Shown here one piece after another: positions 997 to 9,640 of a DNA stretch of 9,640 nt. Source of the DNA: an uncultured Beijerinckiaceae bacterium. Its GTDB lineage: Bacteria; Pseudomonadota; Alphaproteobacteria; Rhizobiales; Beijerinckiaceae. A program made the translations under genes and the position numbers. The DNA lies in NCBI GenBank assembly GCA_937863205.1, contig CALMGA010000225.1, positions 1 to 9,640 of the forward strand, written 5' to 3'. Numbering within the stretch: the stretch's first letter is position 1; each line of letters opens with the position of its first letter. Under the pieces are notes generated by a model. It was given only the letters and a program-made list of their open reading frames with translations, made no database searches and had not been told where the DNA came from.

Positions 997-3072
997 TCAT
1001 CGCTCCGGGCCTGACCTCGCCTTCGATCCAAGCTCCGCGACGAGCCCATCCAGAGCGGAAGCGATGCGCGGACCGAGGTGACGTAGCGCAGGAAGCTGGG
1101 CGTGTTCCGCAAGGATTGCAGCCCACTTGCGAATGCGTCGAAGCCTCTTGAGCTCGGGCTCGAAGTTGCTCAGCAGGCTCTCGTGAGCAGCCTTAACCTT
1201 CCTAGCCGCTTCCTCCTGCTCCTTCGCCGCAGCGATTGCCGCCTCAGCTTCCACCAACCGCGCATTAGCCAAGGTCTCGCGCTCTTGAGCGTTACTCGTT
1301 AATCGCTCAACGCGCGTCTTGATGGCTTTGCCGACCTGCTTCAGGAAATCAAACGCGGGGACCAGTTCGGGGCGCTCCGCAAGGTCGGCAGCCTTCCGGA
1401 TACTGCCATCGGCGAAGCCGCGCAGCCCGGCCTCGAGCGCACCGACCCTTGCCTCGTGCTCGCCCTCACGTGCGACGACAAGCCGTTCCAAGTCGGCAAT
1501 CTTCGCCTCGCAATCAAGCAAGCCGGCCTGCTCGGCTGCCAATCTCGCCCGCGTGCTCGCAACTCTCTTACGTTCGACGGCCAGTTCCTCACGCTCGGCC
1601 GAGACGGCGGCGAACGCCTGATCAGCGGCAGCTCGGGCCGATCGGGCGCTCTCCGCATTCGCAGCCGCCGCCGCCTCGCGCCGTTGCGCTACAGCATTCG
1701 CCTCCTCCAGTCCGCGTTCTCGCTCGCGCAGCGCCTTCCGTCGTTCCGCCTCCGCAGCGGCGATTGCGTGGGCAGCGAGGGCCATATCTGCCTCACGCAG
1801 ATCCAGTTCCGCCGCGCGTTGCTGTAGGCGCTCCGCTTCACGATGCGCGCGATCTTGTTCTTTCCGGTTGCGGGCATTGTCATCTGCGATGCGGCTCGAT
1901 GAGGCAGCGAGTTCCTCGCGCCTGCGCTCGTCGGCATCTCTCGCCTGGACCGCTTCCACCTCGCGCTTACGCAACTCCCTCGTCGTAACCTCGACAGCCC
2001 GGGCGGTCTCCGCGACGCTCGCCTTTTCAGTCGCGACCTCGCGTTCAGCCTCGTGCAGGGCTTCTCGCGCGCGCGCCTGCTGTTGCACGACCGCAGCGAG
2101 CCCTGCCTCGCGACTATCGAGCATGCGCTTCGTTTGCTCGATCGCGGCAACCGCCTGCTGAAGCTCAACCGTCCGCTCGTTCAGAGCTGCTGAAGCGGCA
2201 GCTAGCCGGAGGTCGTCACGCGCAAGCCGATCTCCATCTTCCGCAAGGCGCTGTCGCTCAGCTTGGATTTGCTCCTCCCGCCTCTGCTGGTCATCATCAC
2301 GCTGCGCAATCAGAGCTAGAGTGTTTAGGATCGTTGCACGCTGGCCATCCCGCTCAGCATGCCAAGCCTTCTCCGCAGCGATTGATTGCCGGTACTCGGC
2401 GACAGTGAGATGCCAACGGCCAGTGACGGCCTTCGGCTCGCCACGCACGATGCGGTCGTCGAGCGAGCTGGCCGCGTGGTGGGCCCAGAGCGTCTGCAAA
2501 GCGGAAAAGCTTTTGCCGCCGCCAACCGCCTTCTGCAAGCGCAGGAGGGCATCCTTAACGCTGACCTCGGCGACATCCACCCCTCGAGAGCCGTCCTTAC
2601 GCGGACGGCCGCGTCGCATATGAACAGGCGCGACGAAGCAATCGACCACGCCCGCGCCGCGCTCATCGAGATCCATGCGCATCGCGTACAGGCCGCCGAA
2701 ATGTGTTTCGGCAAAAACCTTCGCTTGCTCGAACAACTTGAGGACGCGCGTGTTGCCGGAGCCGTCGTGGACACCGCCGGTCTCTGCCAGCCAGTCGGAC
2801 GAAATGCCGAGCAGGAGATGCGCCGTCAGCGCAGCGCCTTTCCTGGTGCGAGCACCGGAGTCGTGCAGGTACGAACGAAGATCATTGACGTACTCGCAGG
2901 TCGCGCTTCCATAGCGCGACCAGAAAAGCGACAGAGCGGGATCGGCTCCGGGGCGCACGGCAGCGGTGGGTGACTCGCGTCGGCCATGCGCTTCCTGTTG
3001 ACGCAAATATGGTTCGTCCATAGCTCGATGAAGTCGAGCGAAGGCAAAGATGGTCTTCGTGCCACCGTTCAT
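997..3072 (-). CDS. MobV/Pre-like plasmid recombination protein with long coiled coil; catalytic histidines replaced
   Basis: The 691-residue protein starts KTIFAFARLHRAM, as MobV/Pre (Mob_Pre) relaxases do after the initiator. It keeps a motif-I-like AHGRRE (residues 28-33) and a GADP that matches the usual NADP. The motif expected to read HxDExTPHxH appears at about 132-145 as RMDLDERGAGVVD: the acidic pair D136-E137 is kept, but the metal-binding histidines are gone (the first at the position of D134, the others at G141 and V143). A basic RRGRPRKDG follows at 153-161. From about 225 to 560 the sequence is an almost unbroken Glu/Ala/Arg coiled coil, then a second shorter coil and a globular tail (about 660-691). 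ATG 3072 fits the family's N-terminus, although no clear Shine-Dalgarno precedes it. It lies downstream of parA and the DUF3102-like gene on the same strand. It is likely DNA-binding or structural rather than a working nickase; that is inference. Confidence 0.75.
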   Translation of the reverse strand: MNGGTKTIFAFARLHRAMDEPYLRQQEAHGRRESPTAAVRPGADPALSLFWSRYGSATCEYVNDLRSYLHDSGARTRKGAALTAHLLLGISSDWLAETGGVHDGSGNTRVLKLFEQAKVFAETHFGGLYAMRMDLDERGAGVVDCFVAPVHMRRGRPRKDGSRGVDVAEVSVKDALLRLQKAVGGGKSFSALQTLWAHHAASSLDDRIVRGEPKAVTGRWHLTVAEYRQSIAAEKAWHAERDGQRATILNTLALIAQRDDDQQRREEQIQAERQRLAEDGDRLARDDLRLAAASAALNERTVELQQAVAAIEQTKRMLDSREAGLAAVVQQQARAREALHEAEREVATEKASVAETARAVEVTTRELRKREVEAVQARDADERRREELAASSSRIADDNARNRKEQDRAHREAERLQQRAAELDLREADMALAAHAIAAAEAERRKALRERERGLEEANAVAQRREAAAAANAESARSARAAADQAFAAVSAEREELAVERKRVASTRARLAAEQAGLLDCEAKIADLERLVVAREGEHEARVGALEAGLRGFADGSIRKAADLAERPELVPAFDFLKQVGKAIKTRVERLTSNAQERETLANARLVEAEAAIAAAKEQEEAARKVKAAHESLLSNFEPELKRLRRIRKWAAILAEHAQLPALRHLGPRIASALDGLVAELGSKARSGPER

Positions 3073-3363: not shown

Positions 3364-4326
3364 TCACTCGCCGACGCTCGCCTTCAGCACAAGTTGTACA
3401 TCGGCAAAGGTGGTCGTATGCCAAAGCTCGACGAGTTCGACGATGACCTGATCCTCATCGACGTACTCGCGAAGGCGAGCAATAAGCTCGATGGCTGCTG
3501 TCCGCGCGCTTGCGGCGCGCGTCATCTCGTTGATCGCGGCAGCCCGGTTGATGTTGTCGCCAATCTCATTGACATGCGGCTTCGCCGAATCAACATAGGC
3601 TCTGTCCGCGGTATCGGTCGAAGCATCGACCTGCCCCGACGTGGCGATCGAGTCGACAGCATCTTCACCGAAGTTCTCGGTCATGGCAGCTGCATTGATT
3701 GAGACACTCTCGTCATCCTGCCGACTGGACGCGGCGGAGCGAGCGACCACCTCTTCCTGGCCCGCTTTCTCGAGTTGCCGGGTCTTGTGCGCTCTCTTCA
3801 TGGCTTCCACCTCGTCGAAGGATGGAATATCGGCGGTTTCGATCTTACGCACGATTTCCGCTTGTACCTCAGCCGGAGCGTGCGTGCCCGCATACAGCGC
3901 TTTAAGCTCCAATTGTCCAACCGTTGGACATTTTCTATACCATTCAGTGGCGCTCATGATGTTATGAATGGAGGACTTTGACATGGCGAACGTGCTATCG
4001 CGCCATTTGCCCCAAGTCCCGGGGTAGTGCTGACGAAGCAGATCCCTAGCCTGCAATAATTCCTCACCGACATCAAATACGAATCTCTTGGTCTTCTTGT
4101 AAATTCGTGCGTGATGCCCCTGCAAAGTGATGCGGTGCTTCGGGTCAAATTGTGAGTAGTCGAAGGGCGCCGCAGGTTTTACGACGACATCGAGGAGGAA
4201 GTCTTGGGGAGGGATGATCTCCTGCGCGGGGGTGGTCTCGGCCGTCACGCTCACTGGCTCCGGGCGCGCCCCCTCAGCAAGCGCATCTTCCAGATCGGCC
4301 ATCGCGAAGTCTTTCCGGCTCGCCAT
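3364..4326 (-). CDS. DUF3102-like protein, putative ParA partner
   Basis: This is a 320-residue protein. Residues 70-180 resemble the DUF3102-type domain: a helix reading VGEELLQARDLLRQHYPGTW, then a stretch GKWRDSTFAMSKSSIHNIMSA that looks like a helix-turn-helix, then an ALYAG...APAEVQAEIVRKIE segment and an acidic helix up to SFDEVEAMKRAH. The N-terminal 55 residues are low in complexity and rich in Pro/Glu, and the C-terminal 130 are Ala/Asp-rich and probably partly disordered. ATG 4326 shares its A with the TGA stop of the upstream parA (TGATG). An AAGGA ribosome site lies 7 bases before it inside parA, so translational coupling is likely. A second start at M9 (MADLEDALAEG) is possible. 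By position it could be the DNA-binding adaptor of the ParA ATPase; the domain match is a recollection and the role is inference. Confidence 0.7.
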   Translation of the reverse strand: MASRKDFAMADLEDALAEGARPEPVSVTAETTPAQEIIPPQDFLLDVVVKPAAPFDYSQFDPKHRITLQGHHARIYKKTKRFVFDVGEELLQARDLLRQHYPGTWGKWRDSTFAMSKSSIHNIMSATEWYRKCPTVGQLELKALYAGTHAPAEVQAEIVRKIETADIPSFDEVEAMKRAHKTRQLEKAGQEEVVARSAASSRQDDESVSINAAAMTENFGEDAVDSIATSGQVDASTDTADRAYVDSAKPHVNEIGDNINRAAAINEMTRAASARTAAIELIARLREYVDEDQVIVELVELWHTTTFADVQLVLKASVGE

Positions 4327-4952
4327 CAGTGTTTCCTTTCCGACAATCCGATGATTTCAGCAATTGATCGCCACAATCCCCGGATCTCATCCGCCGCCGG
4401 ACCATTGCGCTGTTCTTCGATGACACCGCGACCAGCGGCGATTGCATCTTGGTAGACAAGTCTATGACCCATGACCGGCCCCACCCGGCCGCCCCACCGA
4501 TCGAGCAGAAGCTGCGTTTTGCTGACTCGCGTCTCGCCCGGTGGGCACTTGATCATCACCCATTTGAAAGTCCTGCCGTGAGCTTTGAGCGCACGCGCCG
4601 TCGGTAGCGACTCCTCCACGTCCAGCCGGGAGGTAGACGTGGGGATCAGTGTCAGGTCGGGTAAGGCGAGTAACCGCTCGATCTCAGAGTCGAACCTGCC
4701 GGGCGTATCTAGGAAGTACAGGTCGTAGTCGGGGTTGGCTTTGACGGTGCTCATGACCTCATCTGGTGCGCAAACGATAACGATGGGAGGTAGCTTCTTG
4801 CGTCGGCAGAACCATTTCCACGCTGACGATTGCGGATCGGCGTCGATGATGAGAACGCGGTAGCCGCATTGAGATACGTAGTCGGCAAGGCAAATGATCA
4901 GAGTGGTTTTCGCGGCGCCACCCTTCTGGGTAGCTGCAGCAATTATTGTCAT
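4326..4952 (-). CDS. parA: ParA-family partition ATPase (short form)
   Basis: The 208-residue protein has the deviant Walker A KGGAAKTT (K10 signature lysine, K15 catalytic lysine), a Walker A' LIIDADPQSSA (D37, D39) and a Walker B YDLYFLDTPG (D82). The third glycine of the usual KGGxGKT is alanine here (A14). It has no N-terminal helix-turn-helix, so it belongs with the short ParA/Soj/ParF-like proteins that bind DNA non-specifically and move plasmids or protein cargo over the nucleoid. GAGGT lies close before ATG 4952. It is the first gene of the minus-strand cluster and is coupled to the DUF3102-like gene by a one-base stop/start overlap. No ParB with a recognisable ParB/Srx domain lies nearby, so the partner may be the DUF3102-like protein. 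Confidence 0.9.
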   Translation of the reverse strand: MTIIAAATQKGGAAKTTLIICLADYVSQCGYRVLIIDADPQSSAWKWFCRRKKLPPIVIVCAPDEVMSTVKANPDYDLYFLDTPGRFDSEIERLLALPDLTLIPTSTSRLDVEESLPTARALKAHGRTFKWVMIKCPPGETRVSKTQLLLDRWGGRVGPVMGHRLVYQDAIAAGRGVIEEQRNGPAADEIRGLWRSIAEIIGLSERKH

Positions 4953-5113: not shown

Positions 5114-5309
5114 AGCAAAAATTTGGTCGCAATACATCATTGCTAGATCCAATGAGTTTGCCGATTCCATGGGACAGTTCTGGAGAAGCGACCCACAGTG
5201 GACAGGACGCACTGATGCTGTCGTCCGACTGTCCTGCTTGCCGCCAACATACTCGAACGCAAGCTGTGCATCGATGAAGCGGCGTGGAACTGGACACCTT
5301 GCTTTCCGT

Positions 5310-5325
5310 TACGATAATGATCGTA
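5310..5325. promoter_or_regulatory. Inverted repeat before the 297-aa gene, candidate operator
   Basis: TACGAT and ATCGTA flank AATG. The repeat ends 27 bp before ATG 5353, and a TTGCTT (5299-5304) lies just upstream as a possible -35. A repressor bound here would overlap the likely promoter. The -10 is not clear. Confidence 0.35.
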
Positions 5326-5352
5326 TTACCTAATTCGCTGACGGGTGAGAGC

Positions 5353-6246
5353 ATGGGCAGGAAGAATATTTATGGTCATTCGAAGCTGCGGCTGCGCGAA
5401 GGTCGGGACTTCGAGTATATCCTGAAATTACCAGTCGACGTGCTGCAGGTTATCACCGGCAGGCTCTACGCTCCGTGGTGCGGCAGGTGCTATGACGTCA
5501 AAGGTATCGAGACCATTGTGATCGATTTAGACACAATTAATCTCGGCATCGCAGTCAACCGCTTCAATCAGATTGATCCTCTCGCAAAAGGCTTGGTCAA
5601 GAAGGCGAGAGACCTGCTTGATGGGGCAACAACCGCTCCGGATTATAGACTCATGCTCGATGAACAGACGAAGAGCATGTCTCAACAGCGCGCGAGCGAT
5701 GTTCTTGTGGCAGATAAGGCCCTGAGCGACGCGGGGTTACTGCCGCCCTTGGCAGAACTGATTGCAAAGCTGCACGAACAGGCCGGTATGCCTATTGTTA
5801 AGCTCAAGGCGGGTCAGGATGCGCAGGATCTGGAACGACGGGAACTAGAAATTTGCATCGAAGCGCCTCGAAGGAAGAAGTGGTGCCCGCCAGTCGTGTA
5901 CTACGATCGTCCGGAAGAGTTCGAAGAGCATGCCATCTCCAAAGGTTTGCAGTCGCGTCTCAGGACCGCCATTGATGAGAACAGAGATCTGCCCCCTGAA
6001 CTCATCAAGGAAGTGATTAAGGCAATCCAGCCTAAGACATCGAAAAATGTTGTGAAAAAGCCAAAGAGGTACGTGTATCCCAATCGCGTTGACAAGATCC
6101 TGTTTGCGACTGGCTTGACCATGGAGTCGGGCAGCGACAGGCAATGCTTAGCAGGTGAGCTTATCCAAGCGGAGATCAACGCACACAAAACCATCATCAA
6201 AAAGAGAGCTACTACCGATGTTAGGAACCTCGATAGGCCAGTGTAG
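5353..6246 (+). CDS. Hypothetical protein, 297 aa, unknown function
   Basis: I do not recognise this protein. ATG 5353 (MGRKNIYGHSKLRLREGRDF) is preferred because GGTGAG precedes it at a suitable distance. The frame can be extended to GTG 5284, but that would run through the palindromic putative promoter. The protein is soluble in appearance, with no signal peptide or membrane segment. Features are a CGRC pair (C43, C46) after APW, a central helical part (about 75-160), a PPVVYYDRPEEF segment, and a basic lysine-rich C-terminal third (PKTSKNVVKKPKRYVYPNRV and a final IIKKRATTD). The basic tail would suit nucleic-acid binding. The gene is less GC-rich than its neighbours, suggesting acquisition. 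It faces away from parA and is followed within about 35 bp by the left end of an IS5-family element. A plasmid replication or partition accessory role is possible but unsupported. Confidence 0.75.
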   Translation: MGRKNIYGHSKLRLREGRDFEYILKLPVDVLQVITGRLYAPWCGRCYDVKGIETIVIDLDTINLGIAVNRFNQIDPLAKGLVKKARDLLDGATTAPDYRLMLDEQTKSMSQQRASDVLVADKALSDAGLLPPLAELIAKLHEQAGMPIVKLKAGQDAQDLERRELEICIEAPRRKKWCPPVVYYDRPEEFEEHAISKGLQSRLRTAIDENRDLPPELIKEVIKAIQPKTSKNVVKKPKRYVYPNRVDKILFATGLTMESGSDRQCLAGELIQAEINAHKTIIKKRATTDVRNLDRPV

Positions 6247-6277: not shown

Positions 6278-6354
6278 TAGCAGGCTGCTGAAAAAGGCTG
6301 TGAGTTTTGAGCAGTCCATGATTCACTCTGTCAGGATTTGCGGGAGTGCATCGG

Positions 6355-7223
6355 GTGCGCGGACAGGATAGCCGGAGCGGCTCGCTGTTCTCCTACGTGG
6401 ACCTGGAGCAGCGGGTCCGCCCGGATCATCCCCTGCGTTTGATCCGGACTTTGGTGAACGAGGCGCTGGCCTCGCTCGACGGGCGCTTTGGCGAGATGTA
6501 CTCGGAAATCGGTCGTCCTTCGATCCCACCCGAGCAGTTGTTGCGGGCGATGCTGCTGCAGGCCTTCTACTCCGTACGTTCCGAACGTCAGCTGATGGAG
6601 CGGCTGGACTTCGACCTGCTGTTCCGCTGGTTCGTCGGCCTGGGCATCGACGATCCCGTGTGGGATGCCTCGACCTTTTCCAAGAACCGCGACCGCCTGC
6701 TCGCCGGCAGCGTGGCGGCGTCGTTTCTCGGCGCCGTGCTGGCCATCCCGCGCGTCAAGCGCCTGCTGTCGCAGGATCACTTCAGCGTCGACGGCACCCT
6801 GATCCAGGCCTGGGCGTCGATGAAGAGCTTCCGGCCCAAGGACGGCACGCCGCCCGATCCGCCCGAACCGCCTGCGGGCGGGCGCAACGCCGAAGTGGAC
6901 TTCCACGGCCAGCGCCTGTCCAACGACACCCACCAGAGCACCACGGATCCGGACGCCCGGCTGTACCGCAAAGGGCGGGGCCGGGAAGCCAAGCTGTGCT
7001 TCATGGGGCACCTGCTGATGGAGAACCGCAACGGGCTGATCGTGGATGGCTGCGTGAGCCAGGCCAACGGCCAGGCCGAGCGCACCGCCGCCCTCGTGAT
7101 GATCGAGACGCGGGCCGACCGGCCAAACCGCATCACGCTTGGCGCCGACAAGGGCTACGACGCCGCGGACTTCGTGAACGAGCTGCGCTCCATGAACGTG
7201 ACGCCGCACATCGCCCGCAACAC
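6355..7223 (+). pseudogene. IS5-family transposase, N-terminal part, disrupted by transposon insertion
   Basis: GTG 6355 (MRGQDSRSGSLFSYVDLE) is the likely start: GGGAG lies 8 bases upstream and relatives begin MRG; a GTG at 6346 is the longer alternative. The N-terminal DUF772-type region (GRPSIPPEQLLRAMLLQAFYS, then RSERQLMERLDFDLLFRWFVG) is intact. The DDE domain shows the first aspartate in HFSVDGTLIQAWASMKSF and the second in LGADKGYD. The frame is interrupted after IARN-T and, read into the inserted element, ends at TAG 7252-7254 after the foreign tail ATMHLTNRR. The catalytic glutamate lies in the separated 3' part, so this copy cannot make an active enzyme. It would act in IS5 transposition by cutting and joining the element's ends. 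Confidence 0.9.
7216..7223 (+). repeat. Target site duplication, left copy
   Basis: CGCAACAC directly abuts the left terminal repeat and is repeated exactly at 9535-9542. Eight base pairs is the target duplication length known for the IS1595 family. Confidence 0.93.
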
Positions 7224-7247
7224 GGCAACTATGCACTTGACAAACAG
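7224..7247 (+). repeat. Left terminal inverted repeat of the IS1595-family transposon
   Basis: It matches the reverse complement of 9511-9534 at 21 of 24 positions (mismatches at positions 6, 16 and 19). It contains TTGACA (7237-7242), a consensus -35 box facing the transposase. The TAGAAT that follows at 7252 is too close for a standard promoter. Confidence 0.93.
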
Positions 7248-7288
7248 ACGCTAGAATCGGACAACCAGGACGCGAAAGCGAGCCTGTC

Positions 7289-8233
7289 ATGTCCATCGAT
7301 CTTACCGACCCCATCTTCTCCGACGAAGCCGCTGCCTGGACCCATTTCGAAGCGATCCGCTGGCCTTCTGGTCCGGTCTGCCCGCACTGCGGCGTGGTTG
7401 ATGCCGCCGACAAGGTGACTGGCCGCACCGCGCGTCCCGGTCTTCACCGCTGCCGCACCAAGGAGTGCCGCAAGCAGTTCACGGCGACGATCGGCACCGT
7501 GTACGAGCGGTCGCATATTCCCATGCACAAGTGGATGCTCGCCACGCACCTTCTCTGTTCCAGCAAGAAGGGCATGTCGGCTCATCAGCTCTGGCGCATG
7601 CTCGGCTTCGGCTCCTACCGCACCGCTTGGTTCATGGCTCACCGCATCCGAGAGGGCATGACCGACGACAGCCACAAGGCCGAGGGCGGCTTGGGCGGCG
7701 TCAACAAGGCCGTTGAGGCTGATGAGACGTATATCGGCGGCAAGGCCAAGAACCGTGCCTATGGCGCCCCTGCGCCCAAGAAAGCGGTTCTCTCCGTCAT
7801 CGAGCGCGACGGCTGGGCCAAGTCTTTCCACGTCGCCAACGTCACGGCCAAAAGTGTTCGCCCGATCATCGTCACCAACGTCAACCGCGCCTCGATCCTG
7901 ATGACGGACGAAAGCACGATCTATCCGAAGATCGGCGAAGAGTTTACCGCGCATCACACCGTCAACCACAGCGCTAACGAGTATGCCCGTCTCGGCTCCT
8001 ATGTCGGCATCAACGTCAGCGAGAACTTCTTTTCCATCCTCAAGCGCGGCATTACCGGCGTCTATCACAGCGTCAGCGAGGCGCATTTGCATCGCTACCT
8101 CGCCGAGTTCGACTTCCGCTATAATCATCGCTCCAAGCTCGGCTGCGAGGACACAGAGCGGGCTCGCCGCGCCGTGGCGGGCGTTGCTGGCAAGCGGCTC
8201 ACCTATAACCAGCCTGCTTCACCCGCCGCCTAA
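7289..8233 (+). CDS. IS1595-family transposase (ISXO2-like domain)
   Basis: The 314-residue protein catalyses cut and rejoining of the surrounding element. A zinc ribbon lies at the N-terminus (C31, C34, C55, C60; CPHC...CRTKEC), followed by a helical DNA-binding part (MHKWMLATHLLCSSKKGMSA) and the ISXO2-like DDE-type domain. That domain shows VEADETYIGG (D145), LMTDESTIY (D207) and NVSENFFSILKRG, where E245 or the adjacent N246 with K252 would complete the DDE/N-K signature. It ends with LHRYLAEFDFRYNHR, typical of the family. Length is normal and no frame disruption is seen. ATG 7289 has only a weak ribosome site (GCGAG). It is transcribed towards the passenger genes, the next of which starts 41 bp downstream. 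Confidence 0.95.
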   Translation: MSIDLTDPIFSDEAAAWTHFEAIRWPSGPVCPHCGVVDAADKVTGRTARPGLHRCRTKECRKQFTATIGTVYERSHIPMHKWMLATHLLCSSKKGMSAHQLWRMLGFGSYRTAWFMAHRIREGMTDDSHKAEGGLGGVNKAVEADETYIGGKAKNRAYGAPAPKKAVLSVIERDGWAKSFHVANVTAKSVRPIIVTNVNRASILMTDESTIYPKIGEEFTAHHTVNHSANEYARLGSYVGINVSENFFSILKRGITGVYHSVSEAHLHRYLAEFDFRYNHRSKLGCEDTERARRAVAGVAGKRLTYNQPASPAA

Positions 8234-8259
8234 GAAGAAACTTTGGGAGCCATCCTCGT

Positions 8260-8265
8260 AAGGAG
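8260..8265 (+). promoter_or_regulatory. Strong Shine-Dalgarno for the first passenger gene
   Basis: AAGGAG lies 9 bases before ATG 8275 and fixes this start. It is clearly stronger than the site in front of the transposase. Confidence 0.75.
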
Positions 8266-8274
8266 AGCAGCATC

Positions 8275-8742
8275 ATGGTCGCAGAGATTTATGGCGGCAT
8301 CAGCGCGTTCAAGACGGCGTTTGATATCGCGAAGGGATTGAAGGACATTGACGACGCGACCCGTAGGAACGCGGCTGTCATAGAATTGCAGGAACAGATC
8401 CTCGGAGCACAAGCGGCGCAAACGACGCTGATTCAGACCGTAGACGATCTTAAAAAGAAAGTTGCAGCATTTGAAGCATGGGAAACAAAGACTGAGCGCT
8501 ATCAGCTTCACCAATGGGAAACAGGAACGTTTAGCTACCGTCTGAAAGACAACGTGCAACCAGCCGAGCCGTCGCACCATATCTGTTCCCGATGCTATGA
8601 GGAGCGAAAGCGCTTTATCTTGAACTCTGATGATGACGCTTACCACCATCGTTTGAAGTGTCCTGGTTGTCAGACGGTAATTCGAATTGGTTCTCATGAT
8701 CGACTTGCGAGGGGCATGGAGGCGTTTTCTCGCGGCTACTAG
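8275..8742 (+). CDS. Passenger protein: coiled coil plus C-terminal zinc ribbon, unknown function
   Basis: The 155-residue protein begins with a helical segment (ISAFKTAFDIAKGLKDIDDA), continues into a heptad-like coil (about 30-70, AAVIELQEQILGAQAAQTTL to DDLKKKVAAFEAW), then a short beta-rich linker and a zinc ribbon with C104, C107 (CSRC) and C129, C132 (CPGC). Proteins of this design occur widely as unnamed small proteins in proteobacteria; no function is established to my knowledge. An AAGGAG ribosome site supports ATG 8275. It follows the transposase by 41 bp in the same direction and could share its transcript. Its last 128 bp overlap, in antisense, the 82-residue minus-strand ORF. Confidence 0.85.
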   Translation: MVAEIYGGISAFKTAFDIAKGLKDIDDATRRNAAVIELQEQILGAQAAQTTLIQTVDDLKKKVAAFEAWETKTERYQLHQWETGTFSYRLKDNVQPAEPSHHICSRCYEERKRFILNSDDDAYHHRLKCPGCQTVIRIGSHDRLARGMEAFSRGY

Positions 8743-8863
8743 GCTTCTTAGCTTTCGGCTTCGGCGGCATGTTCGCCATACGCCGGATCACCTCGTCACG
8801 GCGCTTGGCGATCTCGGCGTCAGATAACGATTGCTCATTAGGAAGCCCTGTTTTGCTCGTCAC
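8615..8863 (-). CDS. Passenger small protein, 82 aa, conserved-type hypothetical
   Basis: GTG 8863 is preceded by a good ribosome site (GGAGG, 7-base spacing, at 8871-8875). The product starts MTSKTGLPNEQSLSDAEIAK and continues RRDEVIRRMANMPPKPKAKK, a design I recognise from many short unnamed alphaproteobacterial proteins that end soon after a PPKP(H/K) motif. Here the frame continues past that motif through SSREKTPP into sequence antisense to the zinc-ribbon gene, so the C-terminal 40 residues are probably an unnatural tail. That suggests truncation of the original gene when the cargo was assembled. The longer frame from 9028 is rejected because the extra residues are antisense to the HEPN-like gene. 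Confidence 0.6.
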   Translation of the reverse strand: MTSKTGLPNEQSLSDAEIAKRRDEVIRRMANMPPKPKAKKPSSREKTPPCPSQVDHENQFELPSDNQDTSNDGGKRHHQSSR

Positions 8864-9440
8864 AACCGATCCTCCACAGCTAACCAAAACCATGCGCGCC
8901 CTAATCGGCGACATTATCATGTTGGGCGCAGAGATCGATGAGCTTGCAAGCGTCGCTCTTTTTCTTATTACCAATGTCCCTATAGCGAACGGCTTTGTGC
9001 TGTTTGACAAGACTCCCGTAACTACCAAGCTGAAGAAGCTTCAATACTTTGTTGAACTTTCAGGTAGAATTGATAAAGCTGAGCAGTTAGATGAGATGAT
9101 GAAGAAATCTGAGCATTTCATTAGGATGAGAAATACCTTTGCGCACGGCACGCTTTCAGCATTTGATGGTATCACGTGTTCGTTTACAGTATCATCTGAT
9201 ACATCTACTCAGGACAACATGCTTGTATGCCGTACAACCAACCTTCGATTGAAGGGACTTCATAATATAATTGAGGAAGGACATGAGATAGCGGATGCTA
9301 TCCGTGACATGTTCGATGCGTCATTACTGCATGAACGATCCGAGCACACAGTTCTTGCGACGAAACCGCCGACTCCAAAAGAGCTTCGAAAAGCACGTCC
9401 CGCAAAACCTCAGCGCCCGCCTCGATCATCTCCGGCGTAA
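8853..9440 (+). CDS. Passenger protein with HEPN-type RNTFAH motif, candidate RNase
   Basis: The core is an all-helical protein: GDIIMLGAEIDELASVALFL, a hydrophobic segment and a second helix KLKKLQYFVELSGR. Next comes SEHFIRMRNTFAHG, coded at about 9111-9149, in which R-N-T-F-A-H fits the R-x4-H motif of HEPN domains, many of which are RNases in toxin-antitoxin, abortive-infection or CRISPR-related systems. The start is uncertain. TTG 8853 (AGGAAG upstream) avoids most of the antisense overlap with the 82-residue ORF; ATG 8892 and ATG 8919 are shorter options and ATG 8769 a longer one. The last third is Lys/Pro/Arg-rich (KPPTPKELRKARPAKPQRPP) and antisense to the 67-residue ORF. The region is markedly AT-richer than the transposase. 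The HEPN call rests on the motif and helical look only. Confidence 0.6.
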   Translation: MLVTTDPPQLTKTMRALIGDIIMLGAEIDELASVALFLITNVPIANGFVLFDKTPVTTKLKKLQYFVELSGRIDKAEQLDEMMKKSEHFIRMRNTFAHGTLSAFDGITCSFTVSSDTSTQDNMLVCRTTNLRLKGLHNIIEEGHEIADAIRDMFDASLLHERSEHTVLATKPPTPKELRKARPAKPQRPPRSSPA

Positions 9441-9501
9441 CCTCGATCTCGCATTCGGCCGCGACGGGTTCGTTTGTCTCCGTTGCAACCTTGGCGTGCA
9501 T
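9298..9501 (-). CDS. Passenger small protein, 67 aa, conserved-type hypothetical
   Basis: The product contains EIEVTPEMIEAGAEVLRDVL followed by FEALLESAVSSQELCARIVH and AV. This is the pattern of short alphaproteobacterial proteins with a VTPEMIxAG helix followed by a terminal VxxI(V)xAM-like helix; their function is unknown to me. ATG 9501 is preceded by AGGT at 7 bases. The start is only 9 bases inside the right terminal repeat, so the promoter must lie in the repeat or in the flanking IS5 DNA. The gene overlaps the 3' end of the HEPN-like gene by 143 bp in antisense. Confidence 0.6.
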   Translation of the reverse strand: MHAKVATETNEPVAAECEIEVTPEMIEAGAEVLRDVLFEALLESAVSSQELCARIVHAVMTHRTCHG

Positions 9502-9510
9502 TCAAGCTAC

Positions 9511-9534
9511 CTGTTCGTTAAGTGCATAATTGCC
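9511..9534 (-). repeat. Right terminal inverted repeat of the IS1595-family transposon
   Basis: Read inward it starts GGCAATTATGCACTT and matches the left end at 21 of 24 positions. The TTGACA of the left end reads TTAACG here. Confidence 0.93.
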
Positions 9535-9542
9535 CGCAACAC
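9535..9542 (+). repeat. Target site duplication, right copy
   Basis: CGCAACAC is identical to 7216-7223. Joining 7223 directly to 9543 rebuilds the uninterrupted IS5-family reading frame through IARNTAGRR. Confidence 0.93.
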
Positions 9543-9640
9543 CGCGGGGCGGCGCTCCGCCGTTGACGGGCGGACCACGCGCCACCCCGGCTACGCGGTG
9601 AGCCAGCGCATCCGCAAGCGGATCGAGGAAGCTTTTGGCT
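9535..9640 (+). pseudogene. IS5-family transposase, C-terminal part (continues past the window)
   Basis: In the original frame it reads RNTAGRRSAVDGRTTRHPGY followed by AVSQRIRKRIEEAFG. This contains the Y-x2-R-type end of the DDE domain and the catalytic glutamate within RIEEAF. It is the direct continuation of the part ending at 7223 and lacks a start of its own. The remainder and the element's right end are outside the window. Confidence 0.9.

Follow-up and report, generated by a model that had tools for sequence, protein, structure and literature searches.

What interrupts the IS5-family transposase gene at the end of this contig of an uncultured Beijerinckiaceae bacterium, and what does it carry? 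The stretch analysed here, hereafter the window, comprises 9,640 nucleotides, probably the entire length, of contig CALMGA010000225.1 (assembly GCA_937863205.1), and the interrupting segment occupies 2311 bp at 7224-9534. We read it as a transporter insertion sequence (tIS) of an IS1595 clade that probably ferries interchangeable defence or toxin-like genes, with a probability of about 0.72; its slots in the window are filled by a phrog_1244 protein and a HEPN-like protein.

According to the initial annotation, an IS5-family transposase gene harbours a complete IS1595-family element with passengers, and both the sequence and its relatives bear this out. The terminal inverted repeats and the perfect 8-bp duplication (CGCAACAC) were recovered exactly as annotated (Table 1). 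The best 24-bp terminal match adjoining a perfect 8-bp duplication has 21 identities in the window, against 11-16 in 100 mononucleotide-shuffled versions of it, and the same kind of ends was found in 54 elements with perfect duplications, the window element included. Once the element and the extra copy of the duplication are removed, the flanks form an open IS5 reading frame, as had been claimed, and this frame aligned through the insertion site to two intact annotated Azospirillum IS5 transposases (L227 and L228). Both are unbroken across the equivalent position, which provides the empty site that the annotation had proposed to look for. In the IS5 protein the insertion point lies 3' of GADK.YD and 5' of RIEEVFGW, motifs that we take to represent the second catalytic Asp and the Glu region. 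The annotated separation of the first two aspartates from the glutamate agrees with a site between the second Asp and the Glu, and the element has landed in the host transposase gene so as to split its catalytic core. The host gene runs past the window end at 9640, and no other damage was seen in the portion of its open reading frame (ORF) inside the window.

The transposase of the element matched Pfam DDE_Tnp_IS1595 (PF12762, 2.3e-33) and Zn_ribbon_IS1595 (PF12760, 4.6e-11) as well as NCBIfam IS1595 (NF033547, 8.8e-53, above the cut-off), and its catalytic residues D145, D207, and E245 are identical in all 62 aligned transposases. It is the sole transposase recognised within the element, and no Tn7-type transposition genes were found there. 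IS1595-family elements generate an 8-bp target duplication, as seen here. With two genes besides the transposase between its ends, the element is a tIS; it may belong to an ISNwi1-like subgroup. Among 40 of 186 plasmid records listed, the matches were annotated only as 'IS1595 family transposase'. The ends, the duplication, and the family suggest that the transposase would bind the 24-bp ends and insert the element with duplication of 8 bp of target.

The element is plausibly recent and active, as judged from the perfect duplication, the intact transposase, and the otherwise undamaged host ORF in the window. That it is now an immobile relic would fit the observation of neither a second copy nor other proof of movement, and also a simple scan that found no sigma-70-like promoter inside the element. 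We consider this quite improbable, given the duplication, the retained catalytic residues, and terminal repeats whose 21 of 24 identities fall within the 19-24 of 24 found among delimited relatives.

Scanning species genomes with the window transposase gave 509 confirmed stretches, and the best 80 loci (numbered with the prefix L) were taken as relatives. Ends beside a perfect 8-bp duplication were located in 53 of these 80 (51 automatically; L042 and L058 by hand), and in 8 further loci the ends were placed by hand beside imperfect duplications (1-7 of 8 positions matching). After 19 loci were dropped, the comparison set held 62 elements including that of the window, 54 of them with perfect duplications. 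Clade members come mostly from Alphaproteobacteria. The elements measure 1833-3634 bp, and because the transposase needs about 1 kb, all 62 have room for cargo. Two small minus-strand proteins, SM1 and SM2, recur between the transposase and the right end, with matches in 58 of 62 and 22 of 62 elements, respectively; the SM1 profile was built from 24 of the matched sequences chosen by motif, which makes its count partly circular, and the SM2 profile from 16 motif-chosen sequences. In L007, L011, L067, and L078 the called SM2 frame begins within the terminal repeat (M-H-L from ATGCACTTG or similar).

Some further features of the ends were observed. TTGAC stands at a fixed place in 46 of the 54 left ends and 28 of the 54 right ends of perfect-duplication elements. 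About 17 bp inward of it, the left-end consensus weakly resembles TATATT, a spacing that would suit a -35 box of the transposase promoter located in the end. A promoter in the left end is not claimed, the scan of the window element having been empty. Elements with ATCACCTTGACTGAAC-type ends (L037, L046, L049, L050, and L054) lie beside GC-rich, partly similar duplications (CCCGCAAG twice, CGCGAGGG, CTTGCGGG, and CCCTCGGG), which suggests a target preference for elements with such ends. The window had no Rfam match at gathering scores.

The same ends with different cargo, another check that the annotation had proposed, were found among these relatives. Four pairs of elements have transposases at least 93% identical. 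Three of them (L001/L025, L038/L067, and L042/L058) share no cargo match, and their plus-strand DNA matches only in the transposase block, a 64-84 bp piece of SM1, and the right end; the fourth pair (L066/L075) has a common stretch, 85% identical over 47 aa. The comparison shows that the transposase, SM1, and the right end behave as a stable chassis between whose parts genes are replaced.

Of the 81 cargo ORFs with 140 aa or more, 30 had an RN...H motif, vs 8 of 314 flanking ORFs. For Pfam and PADLOC searches we used 82 of the 90 listed cargo ORFs, omitting 8 as likely antisense or overlapping. Pfam recognised GmrSD_N (4), DUF4145 (3), MtlR (2), and one each of AIPR, HEPN_MAE_28990, HEPN_RiboL-PSP, PIN, NYN, and SocA_Panacea. 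PADLOC returned 69 families at E <= 0.01, the best at 3.3e-178, vs 19 families and nothing better than 5.6e-14 in a control of 82 flanking ORFs drawn at random from the 314 (at most 600 aa). When 20 cargo proteins were examined singly, 11 matched at 0.001 or better. Matches to both proteins of PD-Lambda-5 (A and B) were present in L029 and L045, an AbiU match in L050, and NsnA/PD-T4-2_A matches in L053 and L054, with weak matches to NsnA in L033 and to PDC-M24B in L013, L051, and L061.

These cargo trends were seen again in two further, partly overlapping samples. The genome sample comprised 29 loci. Twenty-five places had E below 1e-70, of which 23 were taken after removal of two that repeated the first set, and six more distant ones were added. 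One of the loci, L143, is the same place as L035, which had been dropped from the first set, and some genomes are common to both sets. Twenty of the 29 were delimited, and for the other 9 a fixed downstream stretch was taken as cargo. SM1 was present in 11 of 29 loci, and in 10 of 15 where transposase identity was at least 52%. Among the 45 cargo ORFs of this sample, counted by hand and without a flank control of their own, 10 had RN...H, each from a different locus. Of ten larger non-HEPN cargo proteins searched with PADLOC and Pfam, six had a PADLOC match with E of 1e-4 or lower. One matched PDC-S33 (3.8e-100) and two matched PDC-M24B (4.1e-12 and 1.5e-7); the others were a type IIG restriction-methylation enzyme with the specificity subunit next to it and a C5 methylase, in whose neighbour Pfam recognised a GIY-YIG domain.

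The second sample came from contigs classed as viral. Relatives of the transposase were found on 62 of them (L165-L226), so that such elements would occur in phage or prophage DNA as well, if the classing is right. We tested 46 of these loci, leaving out 16 with short or partial matches. Of these, 24 were delimited, 20 of them with SM1 (in L202 on the plus strand), and RN...H was found in 10 of 36 cargo ORFs vs 2 of 94 flanking ORFs. The samples overlap slightly, in that L172 equals L064 of the first set in length and duplication, and L207 and L208 seem to be a single element.

How does the window's own cargo fit this pattern? At E <= 1e-5 the 155-aa phrog_1244 protein had 503 database matches, one of them to itself. 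The second protein, in contrast, found only itself among 5.8 billion database proteins, and neither Pfam nor NCBIfam gave it a family match above cut-off. Its RNTFAH conforms to Rx4-6H, the motif of HEPN ribonucleases. The structural model is a helical bundle with inserted strands at residues 86-118, and 2hsb and HepT stood among the first five VIA rows; Foldseek against the PDB gave nothing at E <= 0.001, and the best E in a PDB sequence profile search was 0.52. CRISPR-associated and ApeA chains among those weak profile rows were not used as evidence. A Cas9/Csx12 identity was rejected as chance (NCBIfam 17.9 bits, cut-off 399.4; PADLOC 2.1e-4). The invariance of R, N, and H in our alignment A3 was discounted as circular, its rows having been selected by that motif. 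The window element was not filed as a defence system because the sole PADLOC matches of its cargo were those of the HEPN-like protein, which were weak, Cas9-type, and judged to be chance. We infer that the cargo has RNase and defence activity, the HEPN-like protein being a candidate RNase-type toxin that would act either in abortive-infection-like defence or in upkeep of the element in its host.

Could the element instead be an ordinary tIS with arbitrary passengers, its HEPN-like protein an unrelated helical protein? Passenger-carrying IS1595 elements such as MTnSag1 and tISCpe8 are described in PMC5704250, and the failure of the HEPN-like protein to match any family or any Foldseek entry significantly would be expected. 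Arbitrary passengers, however, would not account for the RN...H enrichment over flanking ORFs in the first set and in the viral contigs, for the recurrence of the motif in the genome sample, or for PADLOC matches far stronger in cargo than in flanks. We regard this explanation as improbable.

The called length of SM1 is 45-80 aa in 48 of 58 elements, and a 44-row alignment gave the motif RRDxxxxRMLxTPPxP. The alignment had 606 database matches, with no functional name among the 120 listed. For the window copy we chose a GTG start behind a GGAGG ribosome site, within a frame that stays open to 9028. Selection appears to act on SM1 at the protein level: in 10 hand-picked pairs the differences at codon positions 1, 2, and 3 numbered 83, 69, and 152, with a pooled pN/pS of 0.43. 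Across the 58 elements, SM1 distance tracks transposase distance (Mantel r 0.33, 0/5000) and hardly tracks HEPN class (r 0.03, 309/5000). Since SM1 follows the transposase and not the kind of cargo, it would serve the element, in regulation or as a general cargo partner, rather than act as a HEPN-specific antitoxin.

The position of SM1 bears on two further explanations. In 16 elements SM1 directly follows a cargo gene on the minus strand, and in 8 of these the two genes overlap by exactly 4 bp. In 34 a plus-strand gene lies roughly head-to-head with SM1; the called starts range from a gap of 55 bp to an overlap of 354 bp, and calling starts by the longest frame exaggerates the overlap. The window has the latter arrangement, SM1 starting at 8863 and the HEPN-like gene at 8853 or 8892. 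Such proximity would suit an addiction module in which a HEPN toxin and an SM1 antitoxin retain the transposon or its plasmid, with defence as a side effect; restriction-modification, itself addictive, is also among the cargo. Similar SM1 proteins, however, stand beside AbiU, GmrSD-type, PDC, and HEPN cargo, and SM1 lacks the tie to HEPN class that a specific antitoxin should show, which makes this module rather unlikely.

Alternatively, SM1 could be a transposition factor or a regulator of the transposase, unrelated to the cargo. Its presence with many cargo types and its correlation with transposase distance speak for this role, as does its genomic distribution. When the genomes that had yielded 20 of the 80 loci were scanned, 19 contained SM1, with 23 occurrences in all; 21 of these lie within 1.5 kb of a transposase or a piece of one, and the other two adjoin a transposase or remnant in larger regions. 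In 190 genomes drawn from the class it occurred 23 times in 15 genomes (one being the source genome of L001), and 17 of the 23 adjoin an opposite-strand transposase or piece, while 6 do not. Against such a role stand the exact 4-bp overlaps with cargo genes, the lack of SM1 in more distant cargo-bearing IS1595 elements, and L126 and L130, where SM1 adjoins a homologue of element cargo and the IS1595 transposase is missing from its expected place. We hold this role to be possible, with the odds leaning against it. L126 and L130 may be decayed elements or a second carrier.

Returning to the tIS with interchangeable cargo, a stronger form of this reading makes the compact clade a dedicated carrier of immunity and toxin genes, its cassettes being swapped between the transposase, SM1, and the right end, and SM1 a new family that enables exchange or safe carriage. 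Under this form, the singleton HEPN-like gene of the window would count among numerous toxins or defence effectors that await description. We advance this form tentatively, at slightly less than even odds. One guess is that the conserved short SM1 block, lying between two variable slots, offers a homology anchor for cassette exchange.

The left part of the contig (997-6246) looks plasmid-like, with a ParA-type ATPase and three further ORFs (Table 1); for the ORF at 5284-6246, a role in replication is a guess.

Table 1. Features of the 9,640-nucleotide window, in order of position
Feature	Position	Strand	Evidence or remark
691-aa ORF	997-3072	-	
Unnamed 320-aa ORF	3364-4326	-	
ParA-type ATPase	4326-4952	-	AAA_31 4e-14
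Unnamed 320-aa ORF	5284-6246	+	
Interrupted IS5-family transposase gene, 5' part	6346..7223	+	NCBIfam transpos_IS5_4 (NF033581) 3.9e-61; aligned to L227/L228
Target duplication, left copy, CGCAACAC	7216..7223	.	perfect 8-bp match to right copy
Left terminal inverted repeat	7224..7247	+	21/24 match to right end
IS1595-family DDE transposase, 314 aa; zinc ribbon C31, C34, C55, C60; D145, D207, E245	7289..8233	+	Pfam, NCBIfam, alignment
First cargo gene, 155-aa protein of phage family phrog_1244	8275..8742	+	phrog_1244 1.6e-36; homologue in L025
SM1, motif RRDEVIRRMANMPPKP	8615..8863	-	profile match 1.1e-11 on long frame
Second cargo gene, HEPN-like protein; TTG 8853 (195 aa) or ATG 8892 (182 aa) start	8853..9440	+	
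RNTFAH codons (Rx4H motif of HEPN-like protein)	9129..9146	+	
SM2, 67-aa right-end protein, motif VTPEMIEAG	9298..9501	-	profile match
Right terminal inverted repeat	9511..9534	-	21/24 match to left end
Target duplication, right copy, CGCAACAC	9535..9542	.	perfect 8-bp match to left copy
IS5-family transposase gene, continuation with Glu region	9543..9640	+	joined-flank frame; alignment to relatives

Defence genes move fast between bacteria, and their best-known transposon vehicles are large. The element described here may help to spread bacterial immunity genes. If elements of 2-4 kb with one transposase routinely carry single defence or toxin genes in exchangeable slots, reading those slots would be a direct route to new systems, and SM1 would mark the cargo slot. 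The clade would also offer a clean test of whether cargo works for the host, in phage defence, or for the transposon, in its maintenance.

Passenger-carrying insertion sequences, including those of the IS1595 family, and defence cargo on Tn7-like transposons are known. In the literature searched (titles and abstract openings, mostly open-access), we found no description of a compact IS1595 clade that exchanges HEPN-like and defence cargo around a conserved small protein. The closest elements are L025 and L001 from Methylocystis, whose transposases are 71% identical to that of the window and which both have SM1 and SM2. L025 also shares the phrog_1244 protein, but the plus-strand gene beside SM1 in the two elements has no match to the window HEPN-like protein at E <= 1e-3. 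Among HEPN toxins, HepT, the partner of MntA, has the Rx4H motif in common with the window protein and is one of the first VIA rows of its helical-bundle model; the window protein differs in its inserted strands, in having no recognised MntA-like partner, and in showing no significant sequence similarity. MTnSag1 (also tISSag10) and tISCpe8 are IS1595-family tIS of 1.7-2.0 kb that confer lincomycin resistance in Firmicutes; they share with our element an IS1595-family DDE transposase, target-duplicated ends, and an internal passenger gene (PMC5704250). In contrast, the present clade is mostly alphaproteobacterial, carries HEPN-like or defence cargo, and has SM1. Tn7-like transposons are likewise enriched in defence-type cargo, being rich in anti-mobile-element defence and toxin-antitoxin genes according to PMC8649781, whereas the elements described here have a single IS1595 transposase and only a few genes of cargo within about 2-4 kb.

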